From positions 1-34,121 of the forward strand of contig CAIMAQ010000020.1 in assembly GCA_903839035.1 (NCBI GenBank): a DNA stretch of 34,121 nucleotides. The letters run 5' to 3'. This document shows, in pieces, positions 15,859 to 25,765 of the stretch (within the stretch, counting starts at the first letter, position 1; the number at the start of each line of letters is the position of its first letter). The stretch comes from an uncultured Opitutia bacterium. Its GTDB lineage: Bacteria; Verrucomicrobiota; Verrucomicrobiia; Opitutales; Opitutaceae. The notes below the pieces were generated by a model. That model made no database searches and was not told the DNA's origin. It was given only the letters and a program-made list of their open reading frames with translations. The translations under genes were made by a program, and so were the position numbers.

Positions 15859-16023
15859 TTACTTGATCTCCTTGTGCAGCGTGTGGCGCTTGAGGAAGGG
15901 GTTGTACTTCTTCTTCTCGATGCGCTCGGTGACCGTTTTCTTGTTGCGCAGCGTGAGGTAGCGGGAGACGGGCTTGCCCTCTTTCTTGGCCTCGGTGCAT
16001 TCCAGGGTGACGACTTCGTTCAT
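15859..16023 (-). CDS. rpmG: 50S ribosomal protein L33
   Basis: The reverse strand encodes 54 residues from an ATG at 16023: [17 protein letters not shown], then [35 protein letters not shown]. This is a full-length L33 with the diagnostic [13 protein letters not shown] end. It is of the C-minus type: only C9 is present, so the four zinc-binding cysteines are absent. L33 sits in the 50S subunit near the E site. rpmG often lies next to tRNA genes or secE, but none is here. An A/T-rich leader (ccatttaaatatc) precedes the ATG. Confidence 0.95.
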
Positions 16024-16216: not shown

Positions 16217-17560
16217 TCACCGGCGCTTGTCCGTCAGCGGCAGCATGACCCCGCGGCGGAAGAGCGATACCTGGCCCGTGCTCGAGGAGACAATGATAGC
16301 TATACAGTTGGCTGCCACGCTGATAGCTGCGGCGGCCGCATGCCGGCTGCCGAGCCCGCTGGGCAGCGCGTGGTCGCTGTCGATCGCCTGGATCAGGCTG
16401 CCGGCCGACTCGACCACCCCGTCACCCCGGATCACAAACGCGCCGTCGATCGAGGAAAATTCCTTCACAGTCTCATCCATGAACGGGTTCAGGATGTTCC
16501 GGTCCTCCTCCTTGTAACCAAAGAACGGGTTCAGCACGAGCGGCTTGGTGAACGTCTCCACCTTTTCCACGTCGCCCACCACAAACAGGCAGCCGACGGG
16601 CCGGCCTTCGCGCCCTTCGACGGCCAGTTCCGTAGCCACCGCAATGACCCGCTCGAGCACCTCGGGCTTCACATCTTCGGGCAGCAGGTCGGCCGTCTGG
16701 CCGGTCAGCAGCGTCTGGAATTCACGCTCCACATCCACCACCACAAGCGTGTCGAACTGGTTGCTCCCGGTCATGCCGCCGACGCAACAGATGCGGTCGG
16801 TGAAGGAAATGATCCCGCGGGTGAGCGCCACCAGCATCGCGCTGCGCAACTGGGCCAGCCGCTGGCTGGAGAACGAGCGCACCTGGATCGTCTCCCCAAA
16901 CCCCTTCTGGTCCTCGCTGGGCTCGATCGGGTTCCGCGTGACGAGGATGGTCTTCATCTTCGTCGGCACGGCCCCGGCCTCGATGCCGCCGATGAACGTG
17001 TCGCCAAAAATCATGATGGTCCCGCAACCCGCGCCGCTGGCCACGCGCTCGGCCTCGCGGAACATCAGCCGGTTGATCCGGTTCTGCTGGGTCTGCACCG
17101 GCCGGATGCCCCCGAAGCCACCGACCAGCCGCTCGTGCAGCGCGTCCAGGTCGGGCGCATGGACAAGGTTGTCGATCAACTCGGGCTCCTTCACCTGCCG
17201 CGCAATCGACGCCAGCACCTGCAGGTAATCACGCGCCTTCTCGCCCGCGATCAGCATGAAGATCAGGTGCACGCGCTCGTCGTCCACCGCGCCGTCGTGC
17301 CGGATGCCGATGCGGCTGCGGCCGATCGCCAGAACGTAGCGGCGCCCCATCTTGACGCGGACGTGGGGCAGCGCGACGCCCAGGCCGAGGTAGGTCGTCA
17401 TCGTGCTCTCGCGGGCCAGCAGGCCCTTGAGCAGCGCCTCGCGCTTCAGGTCGGGGAAACGCTCGACGCAGACGGCCAGCAGCTCCTGCAACGCGCCCTC
17501 GAGGTCAATGCTGCGCAGGTCGATGATCCGGCCCCGGGCGATGATTTTATCGAGACGCAT
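16217..17560 (-). CDS. PTS EIIA - PK_C-like - diadenylate cyclase fusion
   Basis: The 447-residue protein has three parts. Residues 1-145 resemble the PTS EIIA type 2 (mannitol/fructose) domain, with the phosphorylatable histidine at H66 in LGVALPHVRV. Residues 160-285 (ERVASGAGCGTIMIFGDTFI, then KMKTILVTRNP) look like the pyruvate-kinase C-terminal-like alpha/beta domain found before the cyclase in CdaZ-type enzymes. Residues 300-440 form a DAC (DisA_N) domain: EGREGRPVGCLFVVGD, DGA at 372-374, and GSRHAAAAAIS at 404-413. DAC domains make c-di-AMP from two ATP. The usual GTRHR is GSRHA here, so one arginine is replaced by alanine. No membrane segment or DNA-binding domain is present, so it is cytosolic. 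It lies 111 bases after nuoA, same strand. I infer cyclase activity tuned by PTS phosphorylation. Confidence 0.88.
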   Translation of the reverse strand: MRLDKIIARGRIIDLRSIDLEGALQELLAVCVERFPDLKREALLKGLLARESTMTTYLGLGVALPHVRVKMGRRYVLAIGRSRIGIRHDGAVDDERVHLIFMLIAGEKARDYLQVLASIARQVKEPELIDNLVHAPDLDALHERLVGGFGGIRPVQTQQNRINRLMFREAERVASGAGCGTIMIFGDTFIGGIEAGAVPTKMKTILVTRNPIEPSEDQKGFGETIQVRSFSSQRLAQLRSAMLVALTRGIISFTDRICCVGGMTGSNQFDTLVVVDVEREFQTLLTGQTADLLPEDVKPEVLERVIAVATELAVEGREGRPVGCLFVVGDVEKVETFTKPLVLNPFFGYKEEDRNILNPFMDETVKEFSSIDGAFVIRGDGVVESAGSLIQAIDSDHALPSGLGSRHAAAAAISVAANCIAIIVSSSTGQVSLFRRGVMLPLTDKRR

Positions 17561-17671: not shown

Positions 17672-18046
17672 TTACTTCTCCCATTCGAGGGCGCCCTTCT
17701 TGATTTCGTAGATCAAGCCGAGCACGAGGACGCCGATGAAGAACATGATGGGCCCGAGGATGGCGATGTGGTTCGCCAGGAACTCGCGGTAGATGAACGT
17801 CCAAGGCACGAGGATCACGATCTCCAGGTCGAAGAGCATGAAGAGCAGCGCGGTGAGGAAAAACTTCACCGAAAAGCGCGTGTGGATGAGGCCCTCGGCC
17901 GGCACGCCGCACTCGTAAGCCGAGTCCTTGATCTTGGAGCCCTTGGCGCGCTGGCCGAACACGTGGCTGGCCACGATGACCGCCGCGGTGATGCCCGCCG
18001 CAAGGACGGCCTGGATCAGGAACGGGAGGTAGGCGGCGGAAATCAT
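17672..18046 (-). CDS. nuoA: NADH-quinone oxidoreductase subunit A
   Basis: The 124-residue protein has three membrane helices and the NuoA/ND3 signatures: SAYECGVP, RFSVKFFLTALLFMLFDLEIV, and a last helix FFIGVLVLGLIYEIKKGALEW. In complex I this subunit forms the quinone-channel loop (YECG, where Cys is the exposed ND3 cysteine) next to NuoH and NuoD. No nuoB or any other nuo gene lies next to it: the downstream gene encodes the cyclase fusion and the upstream one the DUF362-like protein. Its length is normal and its sequence intact, so I take it to be functional with the other subunits elsewhere. Confidence 0.95.
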   Translation of the reverse strand: MISAAYLPFLIQAVLAAGITAAVIVASHVFGQRAKGSKIKDSAYECGVPAEGLIHTRFSVKFFLTALLFMLFDLEIVILVPWTFIYREFLANHIAILGPIMFFIGVLVLGLIYEIKKGALEWEK

Positions 18047-23435: not shown

Positions 23436-23464
23436 AAGCGCGCCCCACCCGGCGCGCTTTTTTA
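23436..23464 (+). terminator. Rho-independent terminator after tatA
   Basis: AAGCGCGCC and GGCGCGCTT form nine perfect pairs around CCACCC, followed by TTTTT. The T run overlaps the last codons of the convergent antiporter gene, which ends at 23462. Confidence 0.92.
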
Positions 23465-25765
23465 TTCCGCGGCCGGACCCGCTTCGACGAGCCAGCTCCG
23501 GAAGGCCGAGATTTGGGCCGGAGTGCCGAGCGCCAGAACCTCGTCGCCCGCTTGCAGGCGTTCTTCGGCGCTCGGGTTCAGCACGCGCAGGCCGCGGTGG
23601 TTGACCCCGGCGATCTGTACGCCGTAGGTGCGCGCGAGGGAAAGCTCGGCGAGGGACCGGCCGGTCGCCGGGCTGCGCAGCGGAATCTTGATCGATTCCA
23701 TCAGGACTTCCTCGTACAGCGAGTCGGTGTTGCCCGAGACCGCACCGAGAAACGTCTTGCCCGCCTTCACCTGCTCCGTCGTGCCCATTAGCAGCACACG
23801 GTCCCGCGGATACAGCACCGCGTCCGGCGGTGGCAGCGGGATCATGAAGCCCTGCCGCTCGATGCCGACGACCGAGCAGCCAAACCGGGCCCGCAGGTCG
23901 AGTTCGGCGATCTTCCGGCCCTGCGCATCCGCCAGATCGGGCAGCACGCAGTCGATCATGTGCAAATTCCAATCCCCGTGCGCCTGCAGCCAGGGCGCGG
24001 ACGTCGCCGTCATCTTGCCCTCGGCCGTGGCGATCACCGTCTGCAGCTCGATCTCGAGCTGGCTGTGCCAGAGCACCAGCTTGCGCCACAACAGCATCAG
24101 CGCGACCACCGCGATGAACCCGCTCGCAAACAGCAGCCAGCGCGCGTTGCCCTCGGCCGGGAGCAGCGAGAACACCCAGACGAACATCGCCGTGCCGCAA
24201 AGGGACTTGATCACCGTCTCCACCCAGCGGGCCAGCCGGGCCGCCTGGGGCTGGCCGGACGTGGACACCTGGGCGTAGAGCAGCGAAAGCGCCGAGCAAT
24301 TCCGCCAGATCGCCACCAGCGGGGCGAGCAGCACCAGGCTGAGCGCCACCCAGAAAATCACCTGCAGACCGTTGGGAAACAGCCAGTCGCGGCCCAGCCA
24401 GCCCTCGGCCGCGGCCAGCATCTGCCCTGAAAAGATCAGCAGCCCGCTTACCAGCAGCACCTCGATGCCGATCTGGAAAAAACGTTTCCGGCTGAGCTGC
24501 CAGAGCTTGTTGCGCTTGGCCTGCGCCTGCAGCTGGTCCAGCCGCTCGCGATACTGCCGTTGCGCCGCCGCCAGCCAGCGCGGCTGCCGCGCCAGCAGAG
24601 CCTCCGCGATCGGCGCGGACCGGCGCATCACCACCGGCGCAACCAGCGTGGTCAGCAGCGACACCCCGACCGCCAGCGGGTAAAACTTCGTCGGGACAAC
24701 CGCCGCGCCCACGCCGAGCTGCGCGATGATGAACGAAAATTCGCCGATCGGCGTGACTGCCATGCCCGTCCGCAGCGCATCCTTCGGCGGCACGCCCATC
24801 AGCGTCAGCGCCGTCGTGGTTGCAATGCTGCGCGCCAGCAGCGTGAAGACCGCCACGCCCACAATCAGCCCGGCTTCGCCCGCCATCTCGTGCAGGTTGA
24901 TCTGCATGCCGATCGCCACGAAAAACACCGCGCTGAAGATGTCGCGCATCCCCTCGAAGGTCCGCTCCACCTGGTGACGGTGCGGGGTCTCCGCCACGAT
25001 CGTGCCGAGCAAAAATGCCCCCAGCGCCAGCGAGTAGCCGGCGTACACCGCCACCATCGCCAGCCCGAACAGCAGCGCCGCGATGCCCAGTGTCTGCAGC
25101 TCCTCGTCCGCCGAGATGCTCATCCGCCGCAGCAGCCACGGCACCAGCAGCAGCCCGCCCACTCCCGCCAGCGCAACAAACGCCCCGAGCAGGCCCAGTG
25201 TGTGGCCCAGCGACGACGCCGGCGCACCGCCCACGCTGCCGATCTGCACCAGCGAGTTCAGTAGCGTCAGCATCACGATCGCCACCACGTCCTCGAGCAC
25301 CGAGATGCCCATCGCCAGCTGGCCGGACCGCTCGTGGTTCTCCCCGGTCTCCTGCAGGATTTTACTGATGATCGCGGACGACGACACCATGAGCATGCCC
25401 GCCAAAAAGAGGCTTTCGGTGCTGCTCCAGCCCAGCGCCGCGCCCAGCAGCCGCGTCAGGTAATACATCACCAGCGCCCCGCCGCAGGTCGCCACCATCA
25501 GCGACAACCCGAGCCGGCGCAGCTTCCGCACGCTCAGCCGCAGGCCGATGGAAAACATCAGGAACACGAGGCCGACCTGCGCCAGCGTCTCGATCCGGCC
25601 GACGTCGTGTACCAGCGTGAACGGCGGCGTATACGGGCCGACGACCATGCCGGCGGCGAGAAACCCCACGATCACCGACAGCCCCAGCCGCTGGCAGATC
25701 CAGCCGACCACGCCCGCGACCACGAGGATCACCGCCAGGTCCTGGATGAATAGAATGCCGTGCAT
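23462..25765 (-). CDS. Kef-type cation:proton antiporter with four-helix linker and two RCK_C domains
   Basis: The 767-residue protein opens with a CPA2 Na+/H+-exchanger domain of about 12-13 helices (to about 400), with the ion-path patterns GFLAAGMVVGPYTPP, FLMFSIGLRLS and LAMGISVLEDVVAIVMLTLL. Then comes a coiled-coil-like stretch, four extra hydrophobic helices (about 440-585), and two RCK_C/TrkA-C domains: about 600-675 and 689-760 (KIPLRSPATGRSLAELSLA, AGDEVLALGT). There is no Rossmann RCK_N motif (GxGxxG) before them, unlike KefB/KefC. It likely exports K+ or Na+ in exchange for H+, under ligand control through RCK_C. RCK_C domains bind c-di-AMP in several Gram-positive transporters, which connects this gene to the DAC fusion at 16217. 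It is divergent from mreB. Confidence 0.9.
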   Translation of the reverse strand: MHGILFIQDLAVILVVAGVVGWICQRLGLSVIVGFLAAGMVVGPYTPPFTLVHDVGRIETLAQVGLVFLMFSIGLRLSVRKLRRLGLSLMVATCGGALVMYYLTRLLGAALGWSSTESLFLAGMLMVSSSAIISKILQETGENHERSGQLAMGISVLEDVVAIVMLTLLNSLVQIGSVGGAPASSLGHTLGLLGAFVALAGVGGLLLVPWLLRRMSISADEELQTLGIAALLFGLAMVAVYAGYSLALGAFLLGTIVAETPHRHQVERTFEGMRDIFSAVFFVAIGMQINLHEMAGEAGLIVGVAVFTLLARSIATTTALTLMGVPPKDALRTGMAVTPIGEFSFIIAQLGVGAAVVPTKFYPLAVGVSLLTTLVAPVVMRRSAPIAEALLARQPRWLAAAQRQYRERLDQLQAQAKRNKLWQLSRKRFFQIGIEVLLVSGLLIFSGQMLAAAEGWLGRDWLFPNGLQVIFWVALSLVLLAPLVAIWRNCSALSLLYAQVSTSGQPQAARLARWVETVIKSLCGTAMFVWVFSLLPAEGNARWLLFASGFIAVVALMLLWRKLVLWHSQLEIELQTVIATAEGKMTATSAPWLQAHGDWNLHMIDCVLPDLADAQGRKIAELDLRARFGCSVVGIERQGFMIPLPPPDAVLYPRDRVLLMGTTEQVKAGKTFLGAVSGNTDSLYEEVLMESIKIPLRSPATGRSLAELSLARTYGVQIAGVNHRGLRVLNPSAEERLQAGDEVLALGTPAQISAFRSWLVEAGPAAE

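Follow-up and report, generated by a model that had tools for sequence, protein, structure and literature searches.

Little is known of the signals that govern c-di-AMP synthases. In the 34,121-nt stretch of DNA analysed here (the window; contig CAIMAQ010000020.1, from an uncultured Opitutia bacterium), the enzyme carries its presumed input with it: a phosphotransferase system (PTS) EIIA domain and a diadenylate cyclase (DAC) domain lie in one protein. Could PTS phosphorylation set c-di-AMP synthesis through this fusion? The chemistry of EIIA phosphorylation is well understood, so the signal that sets c-di-AMP would here be open to tests with purified protein. Our literature search, which did not reach the class-defining reviews, found no test of PTS control of a DAC.

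An intact three-domain cyclase gene

The gene runs from an ATG at 17560 to a stop at 16217 on the minus strand, with zero internal stops. An earlier note on this DNA had given exactly this interval, leaving the strand unstated, and had read the product as an EIIA domain, a middle region resembling the pyruvate kinase C-terminal domain (PK_C) and a DAC domain. The parts are placed as follows.

16217..17560, minus strand: DacD-like EIIA–DacZ_P–DAC diadenylate cyclase gene, 447 aa (frame and Pfam)
17129..17500, minus strand: PTS EIIA type 2 domain, residues 21-144 (Pfam and VIA-align)
17363..17365, minus strand: codon of His66, the predicted phospho-acceptor, in GVALPHVR (sequence and alignment)
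16712..17083, minus strand: DacZ_P domain, residues 160-283, with the pyruvate kinase C-terminal fold (Pfam, and folded alone)
16247..16624, minus strand: DAC catalytic domain, residues 313-438 (Pfam)
16439..16447, minus strand: DGA motif, residues 372-374 (sequence and alignment)
16337..16351, minus strand: GSRHA, residues 404-408, a GxRHx motif with Ala for the second Arg (sequence and alignment)

Pfam profiles matched PTS_EIIA_2 in the N-terminal region (E 3.5e-18) and DacZ_P in the middle (E 1.4e-27, 96.2 bits), both above their curated cut-offs, and DAC (PF02457) towards the C terminus (E 1.3e-20, 73.6 bits against a cut-off of 27). At E 0.01 or better, 33 chosen members of the family gave PTS_EIIA_2 in 33/33, DAC in 33/33 and DacZ_P in 32/33, and a profile of 33 chosen relatives searched against the PDB returned PtsN and diadenylate cyclases. 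The full-length structure model reached a pTM of 0.41, and its domain placement was therefore left unused; residues from about 290 onwards in this model match DisA (Z 14.9) and CdaA (Z 13.9) over about 130 aligned positions. Taken together, the Pfam matches to all three domains and the folds uphold the three-domain reading.

Relatives that match the cyclase along its full or almost full length, at 37-95% identity, were found throughout the order by similarity search. We considered an assembly or annotation artefact and rejected it, because the same build was found in 77 of the 80 named loci taken at full length (best 80 of 529 relatives) and recurs through the order. The scan of named genomes covers those best 80 of 529 and gives no basis for saying where the fusion is missing.

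A PtsN-like EIIA domain and its putative relay

In the predicted model, the best fold match of the EIIA region is the IIANtr structure 1a6j (residues 1-151, Z 21.1, 147 aligned, rmsd 1.9 by VIA-align); the IIA-mannitol structure 1a3a is a poorer match to the first 150 residues (Z 16.2, 140 aligned, rmsd 2.6). The domain thus resembles PtsN (EIIANtr) in its fold and in the phospho-His site GVALPH.R, at which phosphorylation is predicted. His66, which the earlier note had already singled out within an EIIA domain, is present in 78/78 aligned sequences (the window protein plus 77 named loci from the best 80 of 529 relatives). Unlike PtsN, this EIIA is fused to a cyclase, scores 43.6 bits against the TIGR01419 equivalog cut-off of 138.7 (NCBIfam) and carries Tyr112 where PtsN has the second active-site His. 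That second His is a defining feature of PtsN and of classical IIA proteins; Tyr is also found at this position in three other EIIA proteins of the window's genome.

The same genome encodes EI (L145, a 608-aa frame), HPr (L146, with a GIHARPA site and a GKSIMG serine site) and HprK (L279). A similarity search with the cyclase added three more EIIA_2 proteins, all of which keep the His. In contrast to the PtsP-type EI of the PtsN relay (PTSNtr), which has a GAF domain, this EI consists of the three core EI domains alone and gave no GAF match. PF02378, the one permease family searched, gave no match in the window's genome and was present in 8/103 genomes of the order. Given EI, HPr and HprK but no PF02378 match, the relay looks regulatory. 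Among the same 103 genomes, EI (PF05524) was found in 80, HPr in 86 and HprK in 86. As a separate observation, two EIIA_2 genes (L149:4713-5174 and L148:3-401) lie immediately ahead of genes for a CLC channel and a CorA transporter, an arrangement that suggests EIIA-linked control of ion transport.

A pyruvate kinase-like middle domain and a DacZ-type active site

The middle domain, modelled alone, gave a pTM of 0.70. The 50 VIA-align rows listed for it are pyruvate kinases only, matched over their C-terminal domain (best match Z 14.1, 120 aligned, rmsd 3.0), and 48 of the 50 Foldseek rows listed bear pyruvate kinase titles; the remaining two are 3khd chains with the title PFF1300w. Pfam PK_C itself scored weakly (E 0.34) because that model is too distant, so the PK_C-like description stands as a statement about fold and falls as a Pfam match. 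The fructose-1,6-bisphosphate (FBP) phosphate loop of pyruvate kinases is of the TKSGRSA type; by eye, the matching loop in the cyclase reads GDTFIGG, which makes FBP binding in the known way unlikely. The domain may nonetheless add a second, metabolite input.

In the DAC domain, DGA and GSRHA lie at the residues given in the earlier note, which had proposed that the latter might alter nucleotide binding or activity. Across 95 family rows, D372, G373, R406, H407 and S425 are invariant, and the residue after RH is always something other than Arg (Arg in 0/95). By comparison, RHR is present in 30/30 loci of the 30 best-scoring DACs of our phylum sample, all outside the order, and the accessible part of one source gives the DAC motif as GxRHRxA (PMC7288161). 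RHH is the sequence at this position in a Haladaptatus DacZ whose score exceeds the DacZ equivalog cut-off. According to the text available from another source, DacZ of Haloferax volcanii is an active Mn-dependent cyclase in vitro (PMC6741144); the RHH reading itself comes from the Haladaptatus protein. Because Arg is found in 0/95 rows, RHH occurs in an archaeal DacZ and the H. volcanii enzyme is active, RH without the second Arg is best read as a trait of the clade, not a defect, and the GSRHA sequence loses its standing as an activity-altering oddity. We accordingly set aside the idea that RHA marks a dead enzyme, against which the 95/95 rows and the Haladaptatus RHH both speak, and regard the protein, with its conserved motifs, as a putative c-di-AMP-producing cyclase.

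Among described classes, DacZ/CdaZ shares the order of a PK_C-like domain followed by DAC. DacZ is the best NCBIfam match of the window protein, the two align at 34% identity over 184 aa in the case of Haladaptatus, and RH without a second Arg is common to the window protein and the one archaeal DacZ read. The window protein differs from DacZ in its extra N-terminal EIIA domain and, at 115.9 bits against an equivalog cut-off of 430, is related to it too remotely to count as an equivalog. CdaA, DisA, CdaS and CdaM have a homologous catalytic domain but carry other sensor domains according to the literature; the window protein scores 32.1 bits against the CdaA equivalog cut-off of 188.8 and falls far below the NCBIfam cut-offs for DisA, CdaS and CdaM, and the phylum's best-scoring DACs, unlike it, have RHR. 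A further class, DacD, has members from Lacunisphaera, Coraliomargarita, Puniceicoccaceae and Opitutae in the portion of PMC6741144 available, where Corrigan & Gruendling 2013 and Commichau 2018 are named as the source of the DAC classes. Loci from Lacunisphaera and from a Puniceicoccaceae MAG carry the present fusion (best 80 of 529 relatives). Since the DacD members listed there come from the same group, we provisionally file the window protein under this class, in print by 2019, on the basis of taxon, and take its domain make-up to be probably that of the class. The proposal that the protein is not built like the classical classes therefore survives for the EIIA domain in front, whereas the middle and DAC domains are DacZ/CdaZ-like and the class DacD had already been named.

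Distribution of the fusion in Opitutales

We sampled 288 genomes of the phylum, 43 from the order (the window's included) and 245 others; the order label, Opitutales, was taken from the titles of named relatives. A DAC was found in 280/288 genomes overall and in 41/43 of the order, 39 of those 41 having a single one. Scores against PF02457 ranged from E 8.5e-17 to 6.3e-24 in 40 of the 41 DAC-bearing order genomes; G223, also of the order, has two DACs, the best at E 1.4e-31. The 239 DAC-bearing genomes outside the order scored E 4.8e-32 or better, except G004, G179 and G246. DacZ_P was found in 41/43 order genomes versus 5/245 elsewhere in the phylum. Judged by these domain searches, the fusion is the usual form in Opitutales, and the architecture that the earlier note wished to see compared across the phylum is not an oddity of one genome. 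Three of the five DacZ_P genomes outside the order, all of family f24, have EIIA–DacZ_P–DAC fusions with the His (Pfam on one), accompanied by a second, better-scoring DAC.

In the window's genome, which is 97% complete, the fusion was the one DAC found; the second synthase that the earlier note had raised as a possible source of all activity did not appear. Titles among the best 80 of 529 relatives read Opitutae, Opitutia, Opitutaceae, Opitutales or plain Verrucomicrobia/Verrucomicrobiota, with genera including Cephaloticoccus, Lacunisphaera, Oleiharenicola and Pelagicoccus; one title is 'bacterium' only and one is Akkermansia muciniphila. The last (L234) has the fusion at 73% identity and is probably an Opitutaceae-like MAG under a wrong title.

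His66 tends to be lost where EI is not found

We compared His66 with EI in 90 genomes that had a usable row. Seven of the 97 aligned rows had been dropped: four from DACs that lack EIIA (L141-L144), two fragmentary ones from G325, which has EI and keeps His, and the detached EIIA half of G297, which gave that genome its His state. EI absence was scored by PF05524 alone, some absences may be assembly gaps, and G362, G363 and G364, being outside the 80 EI matches, were counted as EI-negative; on this scoring, His66 is present in 62/70 EI-positive versus 8/20 EI-negative genomes (Fisher p 2.5e-5, uncorrected for kinship). On well-supported branches an independent-contrast test had 4 usable pairs and gave no significant result; admitting every branch brought the number of pairs to 7. 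No genome among the 90 rows that measures 1.2 Mb or less is EI-positive, and every EI-negative loss of His falls in that size range, which makes genome reduction a full confounder; among genomes up to 2.0 Mb, His66 is kept in 7/9 EI-positive versus 4/16 EI-negative ones. The more frequent absence of His66 from EI-negative genomes is suggestive only, a lead and not proof.

The loss was then set against 18 EIIA columns that are at least 95% conserved in the 62 EI-positive rows with His66, for each of the small groups. In family f82 (EI-negative), H66 is the sole column gone in all four rows; D19 is gone in two and the other 16 are kept. Tyr66 was present in 4/5 of the f82 sample, and a wider search of the family gave Tyr in 11/11 g184 loci and His in both g173 loci. 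In f80 (EI-negative), 4/4 matches begin after the EIIA domain, with Pfam EIIA absent from the three scanned; in f83 (EI-negative), residue 66 is Cys in 2/2, with Pfam EIIA absent from the one scanned. Two more EI-negative genomes lack His66: in one, of f67, the residue is Tyr, and in the other, of f81, the frame is too short. His66 is also missing where EI is present: f64, which has both EI and HPr (the HPr site is intact in the 3 of 5 read), carries Tyr66 in 5/5 and has lost L113 in 5/5, R50 in 3/5 and D19 in 1/5, and three f3 genomes have Ser, Ser and Cys. In f3, f83 and the f67 genome with Tyr, many of the 18 columns are lost. On this pattern, the loss of His66 appears specific in f82 and not as clearly so in f64, and elsewhere belongs to a general decay.

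The g184 members of f82 show further changes. A search of four genomes gave no EI; in three of them the HPr has another residue in place of the Arg that follows the phospho-His (the site reads HAT or HTA) but keeps the GKSI serine site. In 8/11 loci (L266-L271, L273 and L275) the gene next downstream of the cyclase is HprK-like, with a degenerate P-loop in 8/8, alongside Tyr66. This looks like a relay stripped of its chemistry yet kept, in which the HPr and HprK-like proteins are possibly non-catalytic partners.

Neighbouring genes and candidate outputs

Three other genes of the window enter the discussion of what the cyclase might serve.

17672..18046, minus strand: nuoA (Oxidored_q4), 111 nt upstream of the cyclase (frame and Pfam)
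15859..16023, minus strand: rpmG-like gene downstream of the cyclase (named by eye)
23462..25765, minus strand: Na_H_Exchanger protein with two TrkA_C stretches, a candidate c-di-AMP target (Pfam)

The cyclase adjoins nuoA in 74/74 testable named loci (best 80 of 529 relatives) and in 33/50 testable loci of the wider order; the rpmG-like neighbour is found in 56/72 and 18/47, respectively. We discarded the neighbourhood as a clue to pathway, as both genes are frequent neighbours and functionally uninformative. In the five f64 loci (L100-L104), nuoA adjoins the cyclase in 0/5. No sigma-70-like promoter was found between 15300 and 19400, and the window gave no Rfam match at gathering scores.

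TrkA_C domains bind c-di-AMP in other systems, and the antiporter with two such stretches lies about 6 kb from the cyclase. It was seen in 8/159 loci, a count that says little because most loci are too short to reach it. Elsewhere in the window's genome, an RF00379 c-di-AMP riboswitch lies 111 nt before the gene for a 674-aa AA_permease_2 protein that may be KimA-like. RF00379 was found in 4/103 order genomes; in G338 it is followed closely by a TrkH gene in the same orientation, and in G085 (L264) it precedes an open frame with a Band_7 domain and no known K+ transporter. A PgpH-type domain is present in 90/103 order genomes, the window's included. Given the riboswitch before a permease gene, the PgpH-type protein and the TrkA_C antiporter, potassium and osmotic control is the likely output.

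Proposed PTS control and its rivals

We favour, at somewhat better than even probability, the explanation that the cell's c-di-AMP synthase is a DacZ-type cyclase tuned by PTS phosphorylation through its fused PtsN-like EIIA. PEP would supply the phosphate, EI and HPr would hand it on to His66, the phosphorylation state of this residue would alter the meeting of two DAC domains, and energy or carbon state would thereby set the c-di-AMP level. PTS control best explains the conservation of His66, an EI–HPr route without a PF02378 permease and the loss of His66 where EI is not found. Counting against it are the f64 and three f3 EI-positive genomes without His and the eight EI-negative genomes with His66; the occurrence of the riboswitch in just 4/103 genomes and Tyr112 in place of the second His were also weighed against it. 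Both the control and its direction we infer from sequence. The cyclase persists in EI-negative lineages in which His66 is replaced or EIIA is unrecognisable, so the unphosphorylated form is probably the active one; that phosphorylation would lower c-di-AMP output is, in our estimate, only marginally the more probable direction. For comparison, PtsN of Escherichia coli binds three K+ proteins, TrkA, YcgO and KdpD, when it is unphosphorylated, and in Pseudomonas putida it is phosphorylated PtsN that acts on KdpD, as given in the part of PMC13104625 available. If the favoured explanation is true, two regulators of potassium transport in distant bacteria would be found within one molecule.

EIIA could instead be a docking or structural module for which contact with HPr or another partner matters whatever the phosphorylation of His66. 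Family f64 is what such a module might look like, with EI, HPr and a recognisable EIIA (Pfam on one) yet Tyr66 in 5/5, and g184 joins Tyr66 in 11/11 loci to a degenerate HprK-like gene directly downstream in 8/11; but pure docking needs none of the His66 conservation seen in 62/70 EI-positive genomes and 78/78 close sequences, and we hold it to be unlikely, if worth keeping in play. The PK_C-like domain might also be the main sensor, of a glycolytic or other metabolite, with EIIA left to fine-tune or localise the enzyme. The middle domain's fold speaks for this, as do DacZ_P matches in three f80 proteins without a recognised EIIA (one below cut-off) and in DACs of the order that lack EIIA, whereas the GDTFIGG loop makes known FBP binding unlikely; we rate this reading as rather improbable.

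Information might flow the other way, EIIA being an output that brings regulator and cyclase to ion transporters. PtsN does bind TrkA, KdpD and YcgO in the accessible text of PMC13104625, and a TrkA_C antiporter lies about 6 kb away, but no transporter gene adjoins the cyclase, which is flanked by nuoA and rpmG, and the 8/159 antiporter count, from loci mostly too short to reach it, says little. This reversal seems to us quite improbable. Least credible is an inactive DAC, disabled by loss of the second Arg of RHR, with c-di-AMP made by another enzyme: RHA here does contrast with RHR in the 30/30 best-scoring DACs outside the order, but the 97% complete genome has no other DAC, the residue after RH is not Arg in 95/95 family rows, and archaeal DacZ proteins include one with RHH (Haladaptatus) and, separately, one active in vitro (H. 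volcanii, in the available text of PMC6741144). We give it hardly any credence.

Beyond the favoured PTS control of the single enzyme, it is slightly short of an even bet that the usually sole synthase of Opitutales was wired to the PTS relay, merging PtsN and c-di-AMP, and was rewired after relay loss, either by dropping EIIA (f80) or by adopting Tyr66 with a non-catalytic HPr/HprK-like pair (g184). The Tyr66 and EIIA-less natural variants would serve as ready-made controls.

Departures from the fusion within the order

Three near-complete f3 genomes with EI and HPr (G102, G336 and G357) gave no fusion cyclase by similarity and no PgpH-type domain, and in G102 the DAC family search was also empty. 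Four loci (L141-L144, in G323, G363, G334 and G172) encode DACs without EIIA in which DGG replaces DGA; DacZ_P was confirmed by Pfam in two of them, and G323 has no fusion cyclase alongside. In G114 (L238), DacZ_P–DAC lies within an open frame of more than 800 residues, the long N-terminal part of which is only possibly coding.
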